A stretch of 64,000 nucleotides of DNA from Gemmatimonadota bacterium (lineage in GTDB: Bacteria > JAAXHH01), in contig JAPPBT010000102.1 in assembly GCA_026702745.1 (NCBI GenBank), positions 62,001 to 126,000 of the forward strand. Direction: 5' to 3'. A program made the translations under genes and the position numbers. Shown in pieces: positions 10,093 through 47,787 of the stretch (positions are counted from its first letter, which is position 1; the number at the start of each line of letters is the position of its first letter). The notes under the pieces were generated by a model. It was not told the origin of the DNA and did not search any database. It saw only the letters and a list, made by a program, of their open reading frames with translations.

Positions 10093-10121
10093 AATATAGC
10101 CGAGGCGCCCCCCGCAGTCAA
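10093..10121 (-). promoter_or_regulatory. Predicted promoter for the phosphatidyltransferase gene
   Basis: Minus strand TTGACT, 17 bp, TATATT. It sits in the roughly 390-bp divergent intergenic region and predicts a leader of about 130 nt. Confidence 0.6.
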
Positions 10122-22642: not shown

Positions 22643-22671
22643 TTGACGATGACCGGCCGTTCGCCTATATT
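22643..22671 (+). promoter_or_regulatory. Predicted promoter for the two tRNA genes
   Basis: TTGACG, 17 bp, TATATT, starting 20 bp after dnaG. Predicted transcription start is about 30-35 nt upstream of the first tRNA. Confidence 0.68.
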
Positions 22672-22711: not shown

Positions 22712-22785
22712 GGGCCTGTAGCTCAGTTGGTTAGAGCATCCGACTCATAATCGGACGGTCCCAGGTTCGAGTCCTGGCGGGCCCA
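22712..22785 (+). tRNA. tRNA with CAU anticodon (elongator Met or Ile2)
   Basis: A 74-nt cloverleaf: acceptor GGGCCTG pairs with CGGGCCC (one G-U), anticodon stem TCCGA/TCGGA around loop CTCATAA, T-arm CCAGGTTCGAGTCCTGG. The anticodon is CAT. Sequence alone leaves open whether it reads AUG or, after lysidine modification of C34, AUA. CCA is not encoded. Confidence 0.93.
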
Positions 22786-39198: not shown

Positions 39199-39209
39199 TC
39201 GATGGCATA

Positions 39210-39256
39210 TTTGACAAGCCAAACTTTTTATTGCGCTGGCAACACGATGGTTGCCA
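39210..39256 (+). promoter_or_regulatory. Candidate operator region: TTTG-N6-CAAA and a 7-bp inverted repeat
   Basis: Just downstream of the predicted transcription start are TTTGACAAGCCAAA (39210-39223), similar in outline to metal-regulator boxes, and TGGCAAC-N6-GTTGCCA (39237-39256), a perfect inverted repeat. Either could be an autoregulatory site of the DtxR-type protein. The assignment is inference. Confidence 0.45.
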
Positions 39257-39275: not shown

Positions 39276-39806
39276 ATGGATGTCTGGAGAGAATTCGAGC
39301 ACAACGAGATCACGCACAGTGGCGCGCACTACCTGATGACAGTTCAGCAGTTGATCGAAGAACAGGGATATGCGCGGGTTTCGGACGTGGCCCGGGAGAT
39401 GCATATCACGCCCGGCAGCGCGTCGATCATGATCAAGTCGCTGCGGGAAAAGGGATACCTTGAAGAGGACAGGAACCGGTTTTTGCTGCTGTCGGACGAT
39501 GGAAACCGACTGGCGCAGTCGGTATGGTCACACCGCCAGATCCTTATCGCCTTTCTCAAGGGCGTCCTGCATATCGACGCGGAACAGGCGGAAATCGACG
39601 CGTGCAAGATCGAGCACCTGATCAGCACGAAGACGGGGGAACGGTTGCTGCTCTTCCTGCAGTTCCTTCTGTCGGACGACCCCGACGGCAAGGCGTTCCT
39701 GAAGTCCTACTGGGATGCCAACGTGCTGTCGATCTGCGATTTCGAGTCCTGCGCGGTGTGCGAGGAAGTGGGCGAATGCCTGGTCATCCGATCGGAGTCG
39801 GCGTGA
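39276..39806 (+). CDS. DtxR/MntR-family metal-dependent transcriptional regulator
   Basis: Metal-sensing repressor, here most likely iron-responsive. The 176-residue product has a winged helix (ARVSDVAREMHITPGSASIM, IKSLREKGYL) and the dimerisation/metal domain with WSHRQILIAFL and EIDACKIEHLIS. The Cys-x-x-Glu-His of the latter matches iron-type DtxR, where MntR has Glu in place of Cys. The C-terminus has four cysteines in a C-x4-C-x2-C-x5-C pattern (CDFESCAVCEEVGEC) instead of an SH3/FeoA domain. The ATG fits the helical start EFEHNEITHSGAHYLM. It opens the porin-ApbE-FMN-FeoA-FeoB locus, supporting an iron role. Confidence 0.88.
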   Translation: MDVWREFEHNEITHSGAHYLMTVQQLIEEQGYARVSDVAREMHITPGSASIMIKSLREKGYLEEDRNRFLLLSDDGNRLAQSVWSHRQILIAFLKGVLHIDAEQAEIDACKIEHLISTKTGERLLLFLQFLLSDDPDGKAFLKSYWDANVLSICDFESCAVCEEVGECLVIRSESA

Positions 39807-39860: not shown

Positions 39861-39906
39861 AAAAGGGACTATCGCGACATGGCCCGGCAAGCCCGGCGAT
39901 AGTCCC
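39861..39906 (+). repeat. Long-stem hairpin element, copy 1 (upstream of porin)
   Basis: GGGACTATCG (39865-39874) pairs with CGATAGTCCC (39897-39906); the 22-nt loop can itself fold (CCGG/CCGG). AAAA precedes it, so on the minus strand it ends in TTTT. The stem sequence recurs in copy 2 before the PepSY gene. ACGTACGCG and a TATAAT-like box (39966-39971) follow, as in copy 2 in outline. Confidence 0.8.
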
Positions 39907-39965
39907 TGGCAGGACTTGTGTTACAGTCCCTGAGGGCGGTACGGACGTACGCGACCCTCTTACTC

Positions 39966-39971
39966 TATAAT
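39966..39971 (+). promoter_or_regulatory. Possible -10 element for the porin operon
   Basis: A perfect TATAAT in the AT-rich tract 53 bp before the porin ATG. No good -35; activation or read-through from the regulator gene is possible. Confidence 0.35.
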
Positions 39972-40023
39972 ATACATTGGCCGCTCGAACGGGTCAATGC
40001 ATAAGTCGAAAGGACTCCATTAG

Positions 40024-41295
40024 ATGTACTGTCGTATACTGATCGCCGTGATCGGCCTGATAATCCTTCCCTACATGGCGTTCGCGCAGGACGACACGAA
40101 GGATGAATCCGAGGAAATCAAGCGGCGTATCGACGCGCTTGCCCAGGAGATTGAACAATTGAGACTGGGCGAAGCGCTGGTGGAGGCCGATCAGATGCGC
40201 TTCGGCTTCGGACCTGCTGCATCAAAGATCTACCGGACCGAACGCGGCGTGTCCATCGGCGGTTACGGCGAGGCTGTGTATTTCAATTACGCCGGCGAAA
40301 AAGACGACGGCTCGAGCGGCAAGGCGGACGTGACCGACCTGTTGCGCGCCATCGTGTACGTCGGATACAAATTCAACAGCAATTGGCTCCTCAACACCGA
40401 ATTCGAATTCGAACACGGCTCGACGGGCGTGGGCGGCAGCGTCTCAGCCGAGTTCATCCACCTGGAATATACCCACAGTCCCGCCTTCAACATGCGCTTC
40501 GGCCTGTTGCTCGTTCCCATGGGACTGGTCAACGAACTGCACGAACCGACGGTCTACATGGGCGCGAACCGGCCGGACGTCGAGAAATCCATCATACCCA
40601 GTACGTGGCGGGAAAACGGGATGGGTATCTACGGCGACACGGGCAAATTCTCCTACAGGGCCTACATCGTCAACGGGCTCAGAGGCTCCAAGTTCTCGTC
40701 GGGTGGCCTGCGCGGCGGCCGGCAGAAAGGCGGCAGAGCGGTAAGCGACCATTTCGCGCTGGTTGGACGGGTGGACGTCACGCCGCAGCCCGGATTCCTC
40801 TTCGGCGGGTCATTCTACTATGGCAACTCGGGCCAGGATCTGGCACGGGAAAATACCAACGTCAAGGTCCCGACGGGCATCTACGAAGGCCATGTCGACA
40901 TTCGCCATTCGGGACTGTGGCTGAGCGCCCTCGCCGCCTACGCGAAACTGGGTGACGTGGCGGCGTTGAACGATGCACTCGGCTATACCGATAACGGTTC
41001 CGTGGGTGAATCGTTGAATGGATTCTACGTCCAGGCCGGATACGACCTGTTGCACCGCTCCAGCTACGTCGGCCAGTCCTTCATGCCGTACCTGCGATAC
41101 GAGCGCGTGAACACGCAGACCTCCGTGCCTTCGGGTTACGCATCAAACCCGGTAAACGACAAGGGCAGCATAACGTTTGGCGCCGCCTATCAGCCCGAAC
41201 CCAGGATCGTGTTCAAGGTAGATTACAAGAACAACACCAACGAAGCGGACTCGGGACTCGATCAGTTCAACTTACAGGTCGGATACGTCTTCTAG
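40024..41295 (+). CDS. Outer-membrane porin-like beta-barrel protein
   Basis: A 423-residue exported protein: signal peptide (ILIAVIGLIILPYMAFAQ), a short helical/coiled segment at about 28-55 (EEIKRRIDALAQEIEQLRLG), then repeated amphipathic strands (GYGEAVYFNYAG, AEFIHLEYTHSPAFNMRFGL) and a C-terminal strand ending NLQVGYVF with a terminal Phe. This fits a phosphate/anion-selective-type porin. The ligand is unknown. It sits three bases ahead of the ApbE gene, so it is probably part of the iron operon and may admit iron complexes. Confidence 0.82.
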   Translation: MYCRILIAVIGLIILPYMAFAQDDTKDESEEIKRRIDALAQEIEQLRLGEALVEADQMRFGFGPAASKIYRTERGVSIGGYGEAVYFNYAGEKDDGSSGKADVTDLLRAIVYVGYKFNSNWLLNTEFEFEHGSTGVGGSVSAEFIHLEYTHSPAFNMRFGLLLVPMGLVNELHEPTVYMGANRPDVEKSIIPSTWRENGMGIYGDTGKFSYRAYIVNGLRGSKFSSGGLRGGRQKGGRAVSDHFALVGRVDVTPQPGFLFGGSFYYGNSGQDLARENTNVKVPTGIYEGHVDIRHSGLWLSALAAYAKLGDVAALNDALGYTDNGSVGESLNGFYVQAGYDLLHRSSYVGQSFMPYLRYERVNTQTSVPSGYASNPVNDKGSITFGAAYQPEPRIVFKVDYKNNTNEADSGLDQFNLQVGYVF

Positions 41296-41298
41296 CTC

Positions 41299-42309
41299 AT
41301 GATCATCAGCCTGTTACTCATACCCTGGTTAACCCTGCTGCCCGAAGACCGGCCGGACCCCGTGCGCATCGAGCGTCATCTGACCCTGATGGGTACTACG
41401 CTGGTGATCTCGGTCGAAGCTCGGGATCGGGCCACGGCCCTTGATGCGAGCGAAAAAGCGCTGGCGGTGCTGCATCAGGCGGAGCGGAGACTGTCGACCT
41501 GGACGAACGATTCCGAACTGTCTCGATTGAACGAAGCCGAGGTGGGGCGGACGGTGAGCCTGTCCCCCGAACTGGCTGCGGATCTGACCGAAGCCCGGCG
41601 GTGGTGGATCGCGACCGGCGGTGCTTTCGATCCCGGGATCGGGAAGCTCACGGAGATATGGGGCCTGCGGAGCGGCGGGAAGAAACCTACCCGCGCGCTG
41701 CTCGACCGGACGGCGGACTTGCCGGGGTTGGAGGCGCTGGAAATGGACGGGCCTACCGCCGCTCGGCGGCATGCCGACTTGCGCATTGACGAAGGTGGAT
41801 TCGGTAAAGGCGCCGGCCTGGACGACGCCGTACGAAAACTGAAGGAGACGGATGCGACGGTCGCCATGATCAACCTGGGCGGACAGGTAGCCCTTTTCGG
41901 TTCCGGCGAATCCGTTCGTTTCGAGGTGGCGGATCCTTCGGACCGTCAACGCGTCGCCCTGACACTGACCATCGACCGGGGAGCACTGGCCACATCGGGG
42001 AACAGCGAGAGAGGTCTCGTGATCGGCGATCGGACCTATAGCCATATCCTTGACCCGAACAGCGGGATGCCCGTGCCGGATTTCGGTTCGCTGACCGTGT
42101 GGGCCGATGACGCCTTAGCGGCGGACTGCCTTTCGACCGGCCTTTACGTGCTCGGACCGGAGAAAGCCCTGGACTGGGCGGCGGAATACACAGGGATTGA
42201 AGTACTCGTCCTGGAATCTACAGATGATGGTCTGAACGCCCGCGCGACAACCGGATTCAGGGGCCGAATCGATTCAGGAGGATCGGATGTCGTCCTGTCC
42301 TTCCGCTAA
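41299..42309 (+). CDS. apbE: FAD:protein FMN transferase ApbE
   Basis: Transfers FMN from FAD to a Thr/Ser of periplasmic flavoproteins. The 336-residue product has an N-terminal hydrophobic segment (MIISLLLIPWLTLLPED) and the ApbE core: LMGTTLVISVEA, ERRLSTWTNDSELSRLNEA, GAFDPGIGKLTEIWG, GGFGKGAGLDDAV, MINLGGQVALFG, ALATSGNSERG and YSHILDPNSGMPV. It starts 3 bp after the porin stop and its end overlaps the start of the FMN-binding protein gene, its likely substrate. Confidence 0.95.
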   Translation: MIISLLLIPWLTLLPEDRPDPVRIERHLTLMGTTLVISVEARDRATALDASEKALAVLHQAERRLSTWTNDSELSRLNEAEVGRTVSLSPELAADLTEARRWWIATGGAFDPGIGKLTEIWGLRSGGKKPTRALLDRTADLPGLEALEMDGPTAARRHADLRIDEGGFGKGAGLDDAVRKLKETDATVAMINLGGQVALFGSGESVRFEVADPSDRQRVALTLTIDRGALATSGNSERGLVIGDRTYSHILDPNSGMPVPDFGSLTVWADDALAADCLSTGLYVLGPEKALDWAAEYTGIEVLVLESTDDGLNARATTGFRGRIDSGGSDVVLSFR

Positions 42310-42886
42310 TTGCGAATCGTCACGGCCGGACTTGCAGTCGGCATTTCGGTTCGGCTCATGGTTGCTTGCGGCTGTAGCACTGATAGCGATACCGGCCACT
42401 GCGTCCGCCAACGTTTATCTTACGGTTGGCGAAGCGCTCGAAATGGCATTCCCGGAATGCGAAATAGAGCGGCGGACGATTTACCTGACGAAGCAGCAGA
42501 CAACCGATGCCGGCGGAATGGCACGGGTGGAACTGAACAGTGCAATCATTTACCCCTACGTGGCGTTGAAGGAAGGCCGTATCGCCGGTGTCGCGTATTT
42601 CGACAATCATATCGTGCGGACACTGGATGAGACGATTATGGTGGCCATTGATCCGGACGACAGGGTGCATCGCGTGGAACTGCTGGTGTTCAATGAACCG
42701 CCCGAGTACATACCGCCGGATGCCTGGTATCGTTTGTTCCCGGGTCAGCGATTGGACGACCACCTCGCCGTGAACCGGGGAATACGCGGCATACTGGGTG
42801 CAACCTTAACGACGCGCAGCACCACCGACGCGGTACGGCGCATGCTGGCGATTCATCATGTTATCAAGGATCAACTGGAACGTTGA
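42287..42886 (+). CDS. Exported FMN-binding-domain protein (ApbE substrate)
   Basis: Predicted extracytosolic electron carrier with covalently bound FMN. The 199-residue product has a signal/anchor (SWLLAAVALIAIPATASA), then a compact FMN-binding domain (ALKEGRIAGVAYFDNHIVRT, IAIDPDD-type strand) ending in ILGATLTTRSTTDAVRRML. GATLT is the flavinylation motif, with Thr175 the expected acceptor; the residue before Gly is Leu rather than the usual Ser/Thr. It overlaps apbE by 23 nt and the cytochrome-like gene by 4 nt (TTGA), so the three are translationally coupled. Confidence 0.88.
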   Translation: MSSCPSANCESSRPDLQSAFRFGSWLLAAVALIAIPATASANVYLTVGEALEMAFPECEIERRTIYLTKQQTTDAGGMARVELNSAIIYPYVALKEGRIAGVAYFDNHIVRTLDETIMVAIDPDDRVHRVELLVFNEPPEYIPPDAWYRLFPGQRLDDHLAVNRGIRGILGATLTTRSTTDAVRRMLAIHHVIKDQLER

Positions 42887-43377
42887 ACAGAATCGAAGCC
42901 TGGTTCGTGCATATCTCGACGATCCTCGTCGGGGTCACCGGGGTGATTTATGCCGTCATGCGGTACCTGATGGAACCCGTGGATACATATTCCGTGGTCA
43001 GCCACCCGTGGCAGCCCGGCGTACAATATCTCCATATCGTGGTCGCCCCGTTCGCGGTGTTCGCCATCGGGCTGATCTGGAAAAACCATATCTACGACCA
43101 CTATCGACGCAGACTGACGACCGGACGGCGCAGTGGAATAAGTCTGATACTGACCATGGCGCCAATGGTCGTATCCGGATACCTGATACAGGTGTCGGTC
43201 GGCGAATCCTGGCGCATCGTCTGGATCGTCGTCCATTGCATTACGTCATTCCTATGGATAACCGGTTACCTTGTACACCAGGTGACCCATCTTCGTAAAA
43301 AGGGGACACTGCCTATTCGAAAAACACCTTTCAGTTCCGTAGCAAGTACCAGCATAGGACCCTCTGACACGAGATAA
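42883..43377 (+). CDS. Four-helix cytochrome b-like membrane protein
   Basis: A 164-residue integral membrane protein with four predicted helices (about 5-29, 46-66, 86-106, 110-135). Histidines sit in or near helices at 10, 51, 118 and 132, suggesting two b haems, with further histidines at membrane edges (41, 69, 73, 136). It would pass electrons from the quinone pool to the FMN-binding partner. It resembles small cytochromes found with flavinylated domains; I could not assign a named family. The start is TTG overlapping the previous stop; feoA starts 3 bp after. Confidence 0.7.
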   Translation: MNRIEAWFVHISTILVGVTGVIYAVMRYLMEPVDTYSVVSHPWQPGVQYLHIVVAPFAVFAIGLIWKNHIYDHYRRRLTTGRRSGISLILTMAPMVVSGYLIQVSVGESWRIVWIVVHCITSFLWITGYLVHQVTHLRKKGTLPIRKTPFSSVASTSIGPSDTR

Positions 43378-43380
43378 CCC

Positions 43381-43644
43381 ATGCACTCTGAACTCTTTAC
43401 CAATACAACGGCGCAAACGATTCGCCTGGATGAACTGAAGCCCGGTGAAAAAGGAACGATCCGACAGATCAAGGGTACGGCGGGGGAAGAAGTTCACCTG
43501 ATGGAACTGGGGCTGCTTCCCGGCACAACCGTCGAACTGATCAAACGTGCACCCATGGGCGACCCGATCGAGATTCGCGTACGGAGCTACCACCTGTCTA
43601 TTCGTTGCTCGGAAGCCCGTTCGGTCATGGTGGAAAGAGGCTGA
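43381..43644 (+). CDS. feoA: Ferrous iron transport protein FeoA
   Basis: Small SH3-like cytoplasmic partner of FeoB. The 87-residue product shows LDELKPGEKGTIRQIKG, HLMELGLLPGTTVELIKRAP and DPIEIRVRSYHLSIRCSEAR, the standard FeoA pattern. It follows the cytochrome-like gene by 3 bp, tying the flavin redox genes to ferrous iron uptake. feoB itself lies 1.9 kb downstream, beyond the PepSY gene. Confidence 0.94.
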   Translation: MHSELFTNTTAQTIRLDELKPGEKGTIRQIKGTAGEEVHLMELGLLPGTTVELIKRAPMGDPIEIRVRSYHLSIRCSEARSVMVERG

Positions 43645-43656
43645 ACTGAAGGTTAC

Positions 43657-43703
43657 AAAAAAAGGACTATCGGTTCGGCTGGCCAGCTCTCCCCGATAGT
43701 CCC
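43657..43703 (+). repeat. Long-stem hairpin element, copy 2 (upstream of PepSY gene)
   Basis: GGACTATCGG (43664-43673) pairs with CCGATAGTCC (43693-43702), loop 19 nt with its own GGCTGGCC self-pairing. Seven A residues precede it, so on the minus strand it looks like an intrinsic terminator (TTTTTTT tail). CCTGG directly follows the stem in both copies, then ACGTACGCG (43718-43726). Confidence 0.8.
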
Positions 43704-43816
43704 TGGACCAGGGGGATACGTACGCGTTTAGGGTACAATCCGATCCCGGCCTGTATTATTGAATATATGCCCCCTGGTGCTCGGTGTCAAATTCATCGGA
43801 TCACTGTGGGGCTTAC

Positions 43817-45022
43817 ATGTTTCGCAAAACCATTTTCTGGATCCATCTCTCCTCGGGTGTCGTCGCCGGCGTGGTCATTCTGATCATGTCCGTCACCGGC
43901 GTGCTGCTCACCTTCCAAAGCCAGATCGTCGACTTCGCCAACCGGGATTACTCCACGGTCCGCCCACCCCATTCGGGCGCGGAGCGCATGGATCTCGATG
44001 CGGTGCTGTCGGCGGTCCGGAACGTCGAAACCGTAACGGAACCCACCTCCGTCACCATCCGTCCCGATCCGGACGAGGCGTACGTCGTGCGATTCGGCCG
44101 AGCGAAAACCGTCTTCGTCGATCCTTATAACGGGGAGGTCCGGGGCGAAGGAAACATCGCCGTCCGCGATTTCCTGCGCGAGATTGTGTACTGGCACCGC
44201 TGGTTCGCCGCGGAGGACGAGAACAGGGCAGTCGCCCGCGCGGTTACGGGCGCCTGCAACCTGGCGTTCTTCTTCCTGACCATCACGGGACTTTACATCT
44301 GGTGGCCCCGCAGGTGGACCTTCGCTGCTTTTAAGGCGGTCTTCCTTCCAAACTTCAAAGTCAAGGGAAAGACCAGGGATTTCAACTGGCACAATTCCTT
44401 CGGCATCTGGTGCCTTCCCGCCCTCTTCCTGATCTCACTGAGCGGCGTGGTCATATCCTATCGTTGGGCCGGCAACCTGGTCTACACGCTCACGGGAACG
44501 GAACCCCCGCAACGGACTTCACAGGCCGCCGCGGAACCGGAATACCCGGAGGAGGAATCCGCGCCGTCCCCTTTCGCGCCGTCCGAGTCCTTTCTGGATG
44601 CGGCGCGGAAGCAGGTTCCAGAATGGGCGTACATCACCCTGAACCTGCAGAAAGAAGGCGCGGTAACCACCACACTGACCGTATCTGAAATGGACAATCG
44701 CATTCCGCTGACCCGATCGACCCTTACCGTATCTACGAGCGATGCGGAATTAGTCGAATGGGTACCCTTCACCAGCCTGAACATGGGACGGCAGATCCGC
44801 ACATGGCTGCGCTGGATTCATACGGGCGAAGCGGCCGGTTGGTTCGGCCAGCTCATCGCAGGCGTGGCGTCGGCCGGCGCCGTGGTCCTGGTCTGGACGG
44901 GGCTTTCGCTGGCATGGCGGCGATTACGAAGGTTCAACAGAACCCGGCAAGACAGGGCATACACTACGAAGGATATACCAGGAGAATCCGATGAAGAACC
45001 ACACTTTGCTCGCACAGGATGA
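43817..45022 (+). CDS. PepSY-associated transmembrane protein (putative ferric reductase)
   Basis: Inner-membrane protein of the PepSY_TM/PiuB type, 401 residues. It opens FRKTIFWIHLSSGVVAGVVI, and further membrane helices carry conserved histidines: VYWHRWFA, FNWHNSFGIW and LRWIHTGEAAG. PepSY-like extracytosolic regions lie between helices 1-2 and 3-4. Members reduce siderophore-bound or free ferric iron or carry electrons across the membrane. GGGG lies 7 nt before the ATG. The end overlaps the next small gene by 32 nt. Placement between feoA and feoB supports an iron role. Confidence 0.87.
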   Translation: MFRKTIFWIHLSSGVVAGVVILIMSVTGVLLTFQSQIVDFANRDYSTVRPPHSGAERMDLDAVLSAVRNVETVTEPTSVTIRPDPDEAYVVRFGRAKTVFVDPYNGEVRGEGNIAVRDFLREIVYWHRWFAAEDENRAVARAVTGACNLAFFFLTITGLYIWWPRRWTFAAFKAVFLPNFKVKGKTRDFNWHNSFGIWCLPALFLISLSGVVISYRWAGNLVYTLTGTEPPQRTSQAAAEPEYPEEESAPSPFAPSESFLDAARKQVPEWAYITLNLQKEGAVTTTLTVSEMDNRIPLTRSTLTVSTSDAELVEWVPFTSLNMGRQIRTWLRWIHTGEAAGWFGQLIAGVASAGAVVLVWTGLSLAWRRLRRFNRTRQDRAYTTKDIPGESDEEPHFARTG

Positions 45023-45513: not shown

Positions 45514-45543
45514 CCGGGCTTGACGGTTTTCCGGCCCGGTTTT
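45514..45543 (+). terminator. Possible attenuator hairpin before feoB
   Basis: CCGGGC (45514-45519) can pair with GCCCGG (45534-45539), followed by TTTT. An AT-rich tract with TATATT (45500-45505) lies just upstream and may be the feoB promoter -10. Confidence 0.35.
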
Positions 45544-45576
45544 GATCCCGATCCCATTCAAGAATCAACCGGTGAC

Positions 45577-47787
45577 ATGGCCGAAACAACCAATACATAC
45601 ACGGCACGGGAATCCGTGTACGATGTACTCCTCGTCGGCAACCCGAATACCGGCAAGACGTCCGTATTCAATTCGTTGACCGGGCTCCGTCAGAAAACGG
45701 GCAACTATCCCGGCGTGACCGTGGAGAAGAAAACGGGCACCGTGACGGGTCCGGACGGCGGCACGCTTCGCCTGCACGACATGCCGGGGATGTACAGCCT
45801 TACCCCGAAGTCCCTCGACGACTCCATCGCCCGGGAGGTGCTGATCGGGGAGGCGGACGAGGAGCTGGACATCCGCCTCATCGTGGTCGTGGCGGACGCT
45901 TCGAACCTCAACCGGAACCTCTACCTGGTCACCCAGCTCATCGACCTCGGCATCCCCGTCGCCGTGGCCATGAACATGATGGACAACGCCGTCAGCAGCG
46001 GCATCCACATCGACCTGGACGCGCTTTCCGAACAACTGCAGGTCCCGATCGTTCCCGTGGTCGCTTCCCGCCAACAGGGCATAGACGAACTGAGACGGAT
46101 GATGTTCGACCAGATCGGTCCGGTGGATCGGGATGCACGGACGGACGGTTCGACGGAGTCAGCCAGGGACGCGGTTTCCTTCGCCGAACGGTTTCCGCGG
46201 AGGCGGCTGCTGGGTGGTTTGCTCGACGAAGCGCTCGCCCCTGCGGCGGCGTGGTTCGGAGAACATACGAATCTGAACGAGGTGGCGCAGGCGTCGGAAG
46301 CGCTGCGCGTGACCTCGAGCGACCAGGCGCTGCAGACGTGGATGGAAGGCCGCCAGGATCCCTCTTGCAAGGAAGACCTGAAACGCATCGTGGAGCAGAC
46401 GCGGGGCAGGCTGGACGAAATGCAGGTCCCGTGGCGCATGCTGGAGACCATCCTGCGGTATGACCAGATCGACGATCTCTATTCCAGGGTCGTGCGGGAG
46501 GATCGGGATGTCCAGGACAGCCTGAGTGTCCGGCTGGACCGCGCTTTCACCCACCGGATTGCCGGTCCGGTCATCGTCCTGGCCGTGTTCGCGCTGGTCT
46601 TCCAGTCCATATTTTCCTGGGCCGAAGCGCCCATGACGCTTATCGAGGACGGGATCGCCGCCCTGGGTGCCTTCGTCTACCAGTTTCTGCCCGCCGGCAT
46701 GCTGCGGGACCTGCTCGTGGATGGCGTCATCGCCGGCGTGGGCGCCGTGCTGGTCTTCCTCCCCCAGATCCTCTTCCTCTTCTTCTTCCTGGCGCTGCTC
46801 GAAGACACGGGCTACATGGCCCGCGTCGCCTTCATTATGGACCGGTTCATGAAGAGCATGGGCCTGTCCGGCCACTCGGTCATGCCGCTGCTTTCGTCAT
46901 TTGCCTGTGCGATTCCCGGCATCATGGCGACCCGTACGATCAAGAACTGGAAAGACCGCCTCATCACCATCATGATCGCGCCGTTGATGAGCTGCAGCGC
47001 CCGTCTGCCTGTTTACATCCTGCTGATCGGCGCGTTCTTTCCGTCCATGACGATTCTGGGCGTGTTCACGCTGCAGGGGCTCATGCTGTTTTCCATGTAC
47101 ATATTCGGGATCGTCGTCGCCATCGGCGCCGCACTGGTCTTCAAGCGGTTATTCATGAAGGACGCCGTTCCCACGAGTTTCGTCATGGAACTGCCGCCCT
47201 ACCGGCGTCCGTCCCTGAAGTGGGTGCTCCTGCAGATGTACGAACGGGCGAAGGTCTTCGTTACAGAAGCGGGCCAGATCATCCTTGCCATATCGGTCGT
47301 CCTCTGGTTTCTCGCCTCGTACCCGCAGCCCGACGACTATGAAGCCATGTCGTCTCGATCGCGCATACAGCAGAGCTACGCCGGACAGCTCGGCCAGTTG
47401 ATCGAACCGGCCATCGAGCCGCTCGGGTTCGACTGGAAGGTGGGCATCGGCCTGATCACCTCCTTCGTCGCCCGGGAAGTGCTGGTGAGCACCATGGCCA
47501 CGATCTACAATGTGGAGGAGGCCGACGAGACCTCGGTAGATCTCCGGTCATCGCTTCAGGACGATGTGGACCCGGAGACGGGCGAGCGGTTGTATACGCC
47601 ACTGGTGGCGGTCGCGCTCATGGTCTTCTTCGCCCTGGCTTGCCAGTGCATGGCCACGGTCGCCATAGTGAAGCGGGAGACCAACGGCTGGAAATGGCCC
47701 ATCGTCATGGTCCTGTACATGACGGCCCTGGCCTATGTGGGATCCTTCGTCGTTTACCAGGGGGGACGGCTCCTGGGATTCGGATAA
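45577..47787 (+). CDS. feoB: Ferrous iron transporter FeoB
   Basis: Inner-membrane Fe(II) permease with an N-terminal G domain. The 736-residue product has G1 GNPNTGKTS (21-29), the G2/switch region KTGNYPGVTVEKKTG, G3 HDMPGMYSL, G4 NMMD, a helical linker, then about eight to ten membrane helices including the gate motif SFACAIPGIMATR and ISVVLWFLASYPQP. The ATG giving MAETTNTYTARESVYD is preferred to an upstream TTG. Feo core with accessory reductase genes upstream and a FeoB-associated peptide downstream. Confidence 0.97.
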   Translation: MAETTNTYTARESVYDVLLVGNPNTGKTSVFNSLTGLRQKTGNYPGVTVEKKTGTVTGPDGGTLRLHDMPGMYSLTPKSLDDSIAREVLIGEADEELDIRLIVVVADASNLNRNLYLVTQLIDLGIPVAVAMNMMDNAVSSGIHIDLDALSEQLQVPIVPVVASRQQGIDELRRMMFDQIGPVDRDARTDGSTESARDAVSFAERFPRRRLLGGLLDEALAPAAAWFGEHTNLNEVAQASEALRVTSSDQALQTWMEGRQDPSCKEDLKRIVEQTRGRLDEMQVPWRMLETILRYDQIDDLYSRVVREDRDVQDSLSVRLDRAFTHRIAGPVIVLAVFALVFQSIFSWAEAPMTLIEDGIAALGAFVYQFLPAGMLRDLLVDGVIAGVGAVLVFLPQILFLFFFLALLEDTGYMARVAFIMDRFMKSMGLSGHSVMPLLSSFACAIPGIMATRTIKNWKDRLITIMIAPLMSCSARLPVYILLIGAFFPSMTILGVFTLQGLMLFSMYIFGIVVAIGAALVFKRLFMKDAVPTSFVMELPPYRRPSLKWVLLQMYERAKVFVTEAGQIILAISVVLWFLASYPQPDDYEAMSSRSRIQQSYAGQLGQLIEPAIEPLGFDWKVGIGLITSFVAREVLVSTMATIYNVEEADETSVDLRSSLQDDVDPETGERLYTPLVAVALMVFFALACQCMATVAIVKRETNGWKWPIVMVLYMTALAYVGSFVVYQGGRLLGFG

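Follow-up and report, generated by a model that had tools for sequence, protein, structure and literature searches.

Small RNAs (sRNAs) tied to iron have been described in several bacteria. According to parts of PMC9410917, PrrF is a pair of sRNAs, ryhB/prrF are duplicated in some species, and FsrA (Bacillus) and IsrR (Staphylococcus) are iron-regulated sRNAs whose C-rich stretches pair with Shine-Dalgarno sequences. MrsI is a ~106-nt iron sRNA of an Hfq-less bacterium, Mycobacterium tuberculosis, with a site for IdeR, the functional homologue of DtxR (parts of PMC8628891 and PMC9410917). Here we describe a 64-kilobase stretch of a bacterial genome (hereafter the window; contig JAPPBT010000102.1, positions 62,001 to 126,000) in which two hairpins with one common stem lie among dtxR and feo genes. 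We propose that a small non-coding RNA gene lies on the minus strand at each site and that the hairpin forms its 3' end. Such twin sRNA genes, called sRNA1 and sRNA2 below, are the best explanation overall and a probable one, and they appear to form a new sRNA family, one of an already known kind.

The initial annotation had noticed both hairpins, and this observation is borne out with two corrections, one to stem length and one to the strand of the adjoining promoter-like sequence. Stems of 10 bp had been claimed for both copies; copy 2 has one (43664-43673 paired with 43693-43702), whereas the stem of copy 1 has 12 bp (39864-39875 with 39896-39907). The window has exactly two occurrences of the common stem, GGACTATCG...CGATAGTCC (0.00 expected from shuffles), and the whole 3.88-megabase genome contains no others. 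Both copies also share, as annotated, CCCTGG and ACGTACGCG (39945-39953 and 43718-43726), A-runs lie ahead of both stems, and the alternative pairing partner AGTCCC is present at 39925-39930. The AT-rich sequence is indeed promoter-like, but in both copies it is best read as a minus-strand promoter, which in copy 1 is overlapped by a weaker plus-strand one.

On the minus strand, each hairpin closes a compact predicted transcription unit, with a near-consensus sigma-70 promoter 59–63 nt ahead of the stem:

39861-39962, minus strand: sRNA1, predicted RNA of 102 nt with three stem-loops (start ± 2 nt)
39992-39997, minus strand: sRNA1 -35 box TTGACC, invariant in 8/8 same-genus copies
39969-39974, minus strand: sRNA1 -10 box TATATT after a 17-nt spacer (promoter scan and conservation)
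39932-39959, minus strand: sRNA1 stem-loop 1, with 4/11 pairs changed on both sides
39911-39930, minus strand: sRNA1 stem-loop 2, which includes the alternative AGTCCC
39861-39907, minus strand: sRNA1 intrinsic terminator, the copy 1 hairpin plus TTTT
43657-43755, minus strand: sRNA2, predicted RNA of 99 nt
43785-43790, minus strand: sRNA2 -35 box TTGACA, invariant in 11/11 promoter-bearing copies
43762-43767, minus strand: sRNA2 -10 box TATATT after a 17-nt spacer (promoter scan and conservation)
43706-43751, minus strand: sRNA2 stem-loop 1 with invariant AUCCCCCUGGUCC
43657-43704, minus strand: sRNA2 intrinsic terminator, the copy 2 hairpin plus T7

We scanned both strands of the window for promoters that match at 10 or more of 12 positions around a 17-nt spacer and are followed by a strong terminator. 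Six sites were promoter-like and two of them preceded a strong terminator, namely those of sRNA1 and sRNA2; five block-shuffled windows contained no such promoter-plus-terminator unit. When a 150-nt stretch of each copy was shuffled, the promoter score was reached by 8 of 2000 shuffles for copy 1 and by none of 2000 for copy 2. The exact pattern TTGAC-N18-TATAYT occurs four times in the window against 0.01 expected. Its other two occurrences are at 10093-10121 (minus strand) and 22643-22671 (plus strand); one of the two lies directly ahead of two tRNA genes at 22712, and one precedes an open reading frame (ORF) that we take to be CDP-alcohol phosphatidyltransferase-like.

Folding also favors the minus strand. 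Relative to shuffles, the minus-strand folds have z-scores of -5.0 (sRNA1) and -3.4 (sRNA2), compared with -3.6 and -2.0 for their plus-strand complements, and many minus-strand pairs are G-U, at which the plus strand would have A-C mismatches. No Rfam 15 covariance model matched either RNA at its gathering threshold, nor did any at E-values up to 1. Among the interpretations offered by the initial annotation was that of an antisense-transcript terminator, and this one stands: the hairpins are minus-strand terminators, each a stem with a T-run. Because the transcript that they would end has a conserved promoter of its own, and its body is both conserved and covarying, it is better described as an sRNA gene.

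Conservation tracks the transcription unit (boxes, body and terminator) rather than the spacer and flanks. We compared copies within the genus, omitting those of two genomes from other genera (G001 and G013), a cut sRNA1 (G007) and a promoterless sRNA2 (G005). Identity in the -35 and -10 boxes was 100% and 91% for copy 1 and 100% for both boxes of copy 2, against 51% and 73% in the respective promoter spacers. The RNA bodies were 90% (sRNA1) and 86% (sRNA2) identical and both terminators 98%, compared with 53–76% in the flanks.

The sRNA1 structure is further supported by covariation. Eight of its pairs are changed on both sides, compared with a mean of 1.2 in shuffles (none of 500 shuffles reached this number) and 0–2 in slid controls. 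The compensatory changes fall in all three stem-loops, and 98.3% of cells are paired in the structure model. Stem-loop 1, which is not part of the inverted repeat noticed in the initial annotation, holds four of the eight pairs. One genome, G013, was excluded when the sRNA1 model was built and then aligned back using the model. The covariation is good but not deep, since only the two lineages of G001 and G013 contribute changes, apart from one pair added by the window, and the alignment is model-fitted. Together, sequence and comparison show the promoter-body-terminator anatomy, its conservation and the covarying stem-loops of sRNA1. From this evidence, sRNA1 and sRNA2 are very probably real sRNA genes whose function would reside in the RNA itself.

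The units are confined to one locus in related genomes. Among 16 genomes of the phylum, a group that is probably sponge-associated judging from isolate names, the stem pattern occurs in 13: all 12 of the own genus and one of two others of the family. In the second of these two, G013, a double change preserves the stem, with G-C replacing A-U on both arms, a substitution of the kind that the initial annotation had proposed to look for. In the 15 genomes whose dtxR loci were compared (G000–G014), no copy lies outside the dtxR-feo locus, and each stands either behind dtxR (copy 1) or behind feoA (copy 2), so the suspected specificity for this iron locus, as opposed to genome-wide occurrence, is upheld. 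All copies have the stem and T-run. Twenty copies were located by their stem, and 19 of them, all but copy 2 of G005, have a promoter 57–64 nt ahead of it. A further genome, represented by L079, has both copies with promoters, and the sRNA1 of G007 is cut by its contig end but keeps its promoter.

Model searches gave the same picture. Model R1 was built from nine sRNA1 copies (keeping G001, omitting G013 and the cut G007 sRNA1) and model R2 from 11 sRNA2 copies (omitting the other-genus genomes G001 and G013 and the promoterless G005 sRNA2). R1 matched in 9 of the 16 genomes and R2 in 11, once per genome, and among the best 150 candidates per genome, taken as a first look, neither revealed additional paralogues. 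For other phyla, 68 loci with more distant DtxR relatives (L084–L151) were compared, together with one that is the G014 contig (L083); they contained neither a match to the sRNA1 model nor a promoter-terminator unit.

The surrounding locus is an iron-uptake gene cluster. Its gene order is dtxR, the 'porin' ORF of the initial annotation, apbE, an FMN-binding protein gene, a 164-aa ORF, feoA, PepSY, a 132-aa ORF and feoB. The features that bear on the sRNAs are:

39276-39806, plus strand: DtxR-family iron-dependent regulator (PF01325, PF02742)
39977-40005, plus strand: candidate promoter of the 40024 ORF, TTGGCC-N17-CATAAG, inferred from sequence, overlapping the sRNA1 promoter
40024-41295, plus strand: the 'porin' ORF, without a Pfam match
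43381-43644, plus strand: feoA (PF04023)
43817-45022, plus strand: PepSY-TM protein (PF03929)
45520-47787, plus strand: feoB (PF02421, PF07670, PF07664)

Both RNAs run on the minus strand towards plus-strand genes, and neither has the downstream same-strand gene that would mark a riboswitch or mRNA leader. At copy 1, the candidate plus-strand -35 box TTGGCC and the minus-strand -35 box TTGACC are opposed within a single inverted repeat (TTGRCC...GGYCAA, 39977-40005). If both promoters are real, this arrangement would make them physically mutually exclusive. A conserved DtxR-like palindrome lies at 39209-39225, directly after the -10 box of the dtxR promoter (TTTGGCTACCCAAA in G013 and G014, TTTGATAAGCCAAA in the genus), and likely serves dtxR autoregulation.

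Natural deletions are compatible with selection on the minus-strand RNA. G008, G009 and G011 share a deletion from the 'porin' ORF through most of the 164-aa ORF, of which a C-terminal scar remains; all three keep sRNA1 and its minus-strand boxes, but the plus-strand promoter that overlaps these boxes no longer has its TTGG. In G007 the promoter end of sRNA1 repeats this pattern. At copy 2 of G005, PepSY and the promoter are gone and the sRNA2 terminator is kept, with small deletions in the otherwise invariant CCCCC and stem region; this copy scores 62.8 bits, compared with 111–118 for the others. Between dtxR and feoA, gene loss has left scars in the form of C-terminal remnants of the 164-aa ORF in L056, L064, L065, L067 and L068, and L056 retains remnants of both this ORF and the 'porin' ORF. 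The PepSY gene of G008 (L064:6204-7407) matches as two pieces split near residue 311, perhaps owing to a frameshift or an assembly error.

These features suggest how the twin sRNA genes could work. A strong sigma-70 promoter, overlapping the sequence ahead of the neighboring plus-strand gene, would serve as the start site of RNA polymerase, which would transcribe ~100 nt towards dtxR (sRNA1) or feoA (sRNA2) and stop at the hairpin and U-run. We infer that the two RNAs are transcribed, functionally related and trans-acting, and that they respond to iron alongside the divergent iron genes, where they might trim iron-using proteins or balance uptake, like PrrF1/2 or MrsI. An iron riboregulator is suggested by the location beside a DtxR-type regulator, feoA/feoB and PepSY, by the pairing of two genes, and by the C-rich invariant stretch of sRNA2. 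The full reading of iron-responsive, trans-acting riboregulators is nevertheless a tentative one.

Several results weigh against the twin sRNA explanation. No Hfq match was found in the own genome (96% complete), compared with matches in 5 of 14 control genomes, although sRNAs that work without Hfq exist. A DtxR operator derived from the dtxR-promoter palindrome (TTTGRNWANSCCAAAC, 3 mismatches) gave 9 matches in place of 12.3 expected, none of them at the sRNA promoters; the palindrome is absent from both, so only location argues for iron control. No operator is known for this phylum. Crude searches yielded no convincing base-pairing target for either RNA, and both RNAs are highly structured, with scarce conserved single-stranded sequence. 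In sRNA2 no pair is changed on both sides, its copies being too uniform for the test. Redundancy between the copies offers no help either: all 13 same-genus genomes keep at least one promoter-bearing copy, but chance gives about the same result (loss of both seen 0 times, ~0.6 expected), and we dropped this argument as not significant. Finally, conservation is higher in the terminator than in the body, a pattern that also suits a rival explanation discussed below.

The target searches gave the following results. When duplex energies were calculated for the two RNAs with 12 start regions of the locus, only long, unspecific pairings emerged (z -1.7 to -2.4), from which we draw nothing. The complement of the sRNA2 C-rich stretch precedes an ATG 19 times in the own genome, compared with four for the reversed control. 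We rejected these sites as targets, as the ATG mostly opens no convincing gene and two others, which by eye we take to be the starts of ribF and folK, do not form an iron set. Seed matches to the invariant stretch of sRNA1 were few and inconsistent and were likewise rejected. As for regulators, the own genome (G000) has one FUR-family match, on contig C35, and two DtxR-family matches, the second a distant one on C20.

The rival that conservation suits treats the minus-strand transcripts as by-products of divergent promoters, with selection acting only to keep a strong terminator as a guard against antisense transcription into dtxR and feoA. The terminator is the most conserved part of each unit (98%), both terminators lie directly downstream of a plus-strand gene, and G005 retains that of sRNA2 though the promoter is lost. 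Yet the minus-strand -35 and -10 boxes are themselves conserved relative to their variable spacer, the body ahead of the terminator is 86–90% conserved and covaries across genera, the loops are conserved per copy, and plain terminators would not require one fixed stem sequence common to two sites. We consider guard terminators unlikely.

Alternatively, stem-loops 1 and 2 might respond to a signal and decide whether transcription passes the terminator, the open state extending an antisense RNA over dtxR or feoA. A structured leader ahead of a terminator and an orientation antisense to both genes would fit such an attenuator, and on a reading of the sequence CCUGG...CCAGG beside the terminator base could compete with the terminator. 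This alternative pairing is short relative to the 10–12-bp terminator stem, however; no Rfam riboswitch matches even at E up to 1, and invariant unpaired sequence for a ligand pocket is scarce. An attenuator is very unlikely.

The paired protein site of the initial annotation has only a slim chance of being correct. As a DNA operator, the inverted repeat would be a widely spaced regulator site of about three helical turns, and identical arms are indeed shared by the two sites and by 13 of 16 genomes, the symmetry of the repeat is kept in G013, and a regulator gene adjoins. The RNA-type evidence disfavors it: the repeat is ~60 nt away from the promoters, covariation reaches stem-loop 1 outside the repeat, G-U pairs are meaningless in DNA, a U-run adjoins the stem, and the best fold is that of a minus-strand RNA. 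The remaining proposal, a cis-regulatory leader of the plus-strand porin and PepSY mRNAs, has a negligible probability, for although the element sits before both genes and its plus strand folds too, at copy 1 the inferred plus-strand promoter comes after the hairpin, the better fold and the G-U pairs belong to the minus strand, and sRNA1 is kept where the downstream gene is deleted.

Read as twin sRNA genes, the two odd hairpins of this little-studied bacterial group become defined genes whose ends can be tested, and their paired, partly deleted copies in a dozen genomes allow a direct comparison of function. We found no sRNA paper on Latescibacter-type bacteria in the open-licence PMC literature, and no sRNA locus of this type with feoB and DtxR was evident from titles and abstract openings. 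Somewhat doubtfully, the pair may constitute a twin sRNA family not described before, in a candidate phylum that lacks Hfq. The promoter of each copy would overlap that of an iron-uptake or iron-reduction operon, so that one regulator could switch uptake genes together with an iron-sparing RNA on the opposite strand, and the family would be an independently evolved counterpart of PrrF and MrsI.

Compared with described systems, the units resemble PrrF1/PrrF2 of Pseudomonas and RyhB as small trans-acting sRNAs tied to iron, and PrrF is paired like the present twins, but they share no sequence, synteny or Rfam match with either. PrrF and RyhB also require Hfq and Fur; in the present genome, by contrast, no hfq was found. 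MrsI is similar in RNA length and in its Hfq-less host but differs in that no DtxR-like site was found at the present promoters; homology to it was compared through Rfam only. Like FsrA and IsrR, sRNA2 has a C-rich invariant stretch, AUCCCCCUGGUCC, although the predicted fold places this stretch in a paired part of stem-loop 1 and the target search gave no convincing result. PrrF, RyhB, MrsI, FsrA and IsrR would therefore be functional analogues at most. If the present sRNAs are iron-linked, they would represent another independent origin of sRNA-based iron control, operating without Hfq beside a DtxR-type regulator.

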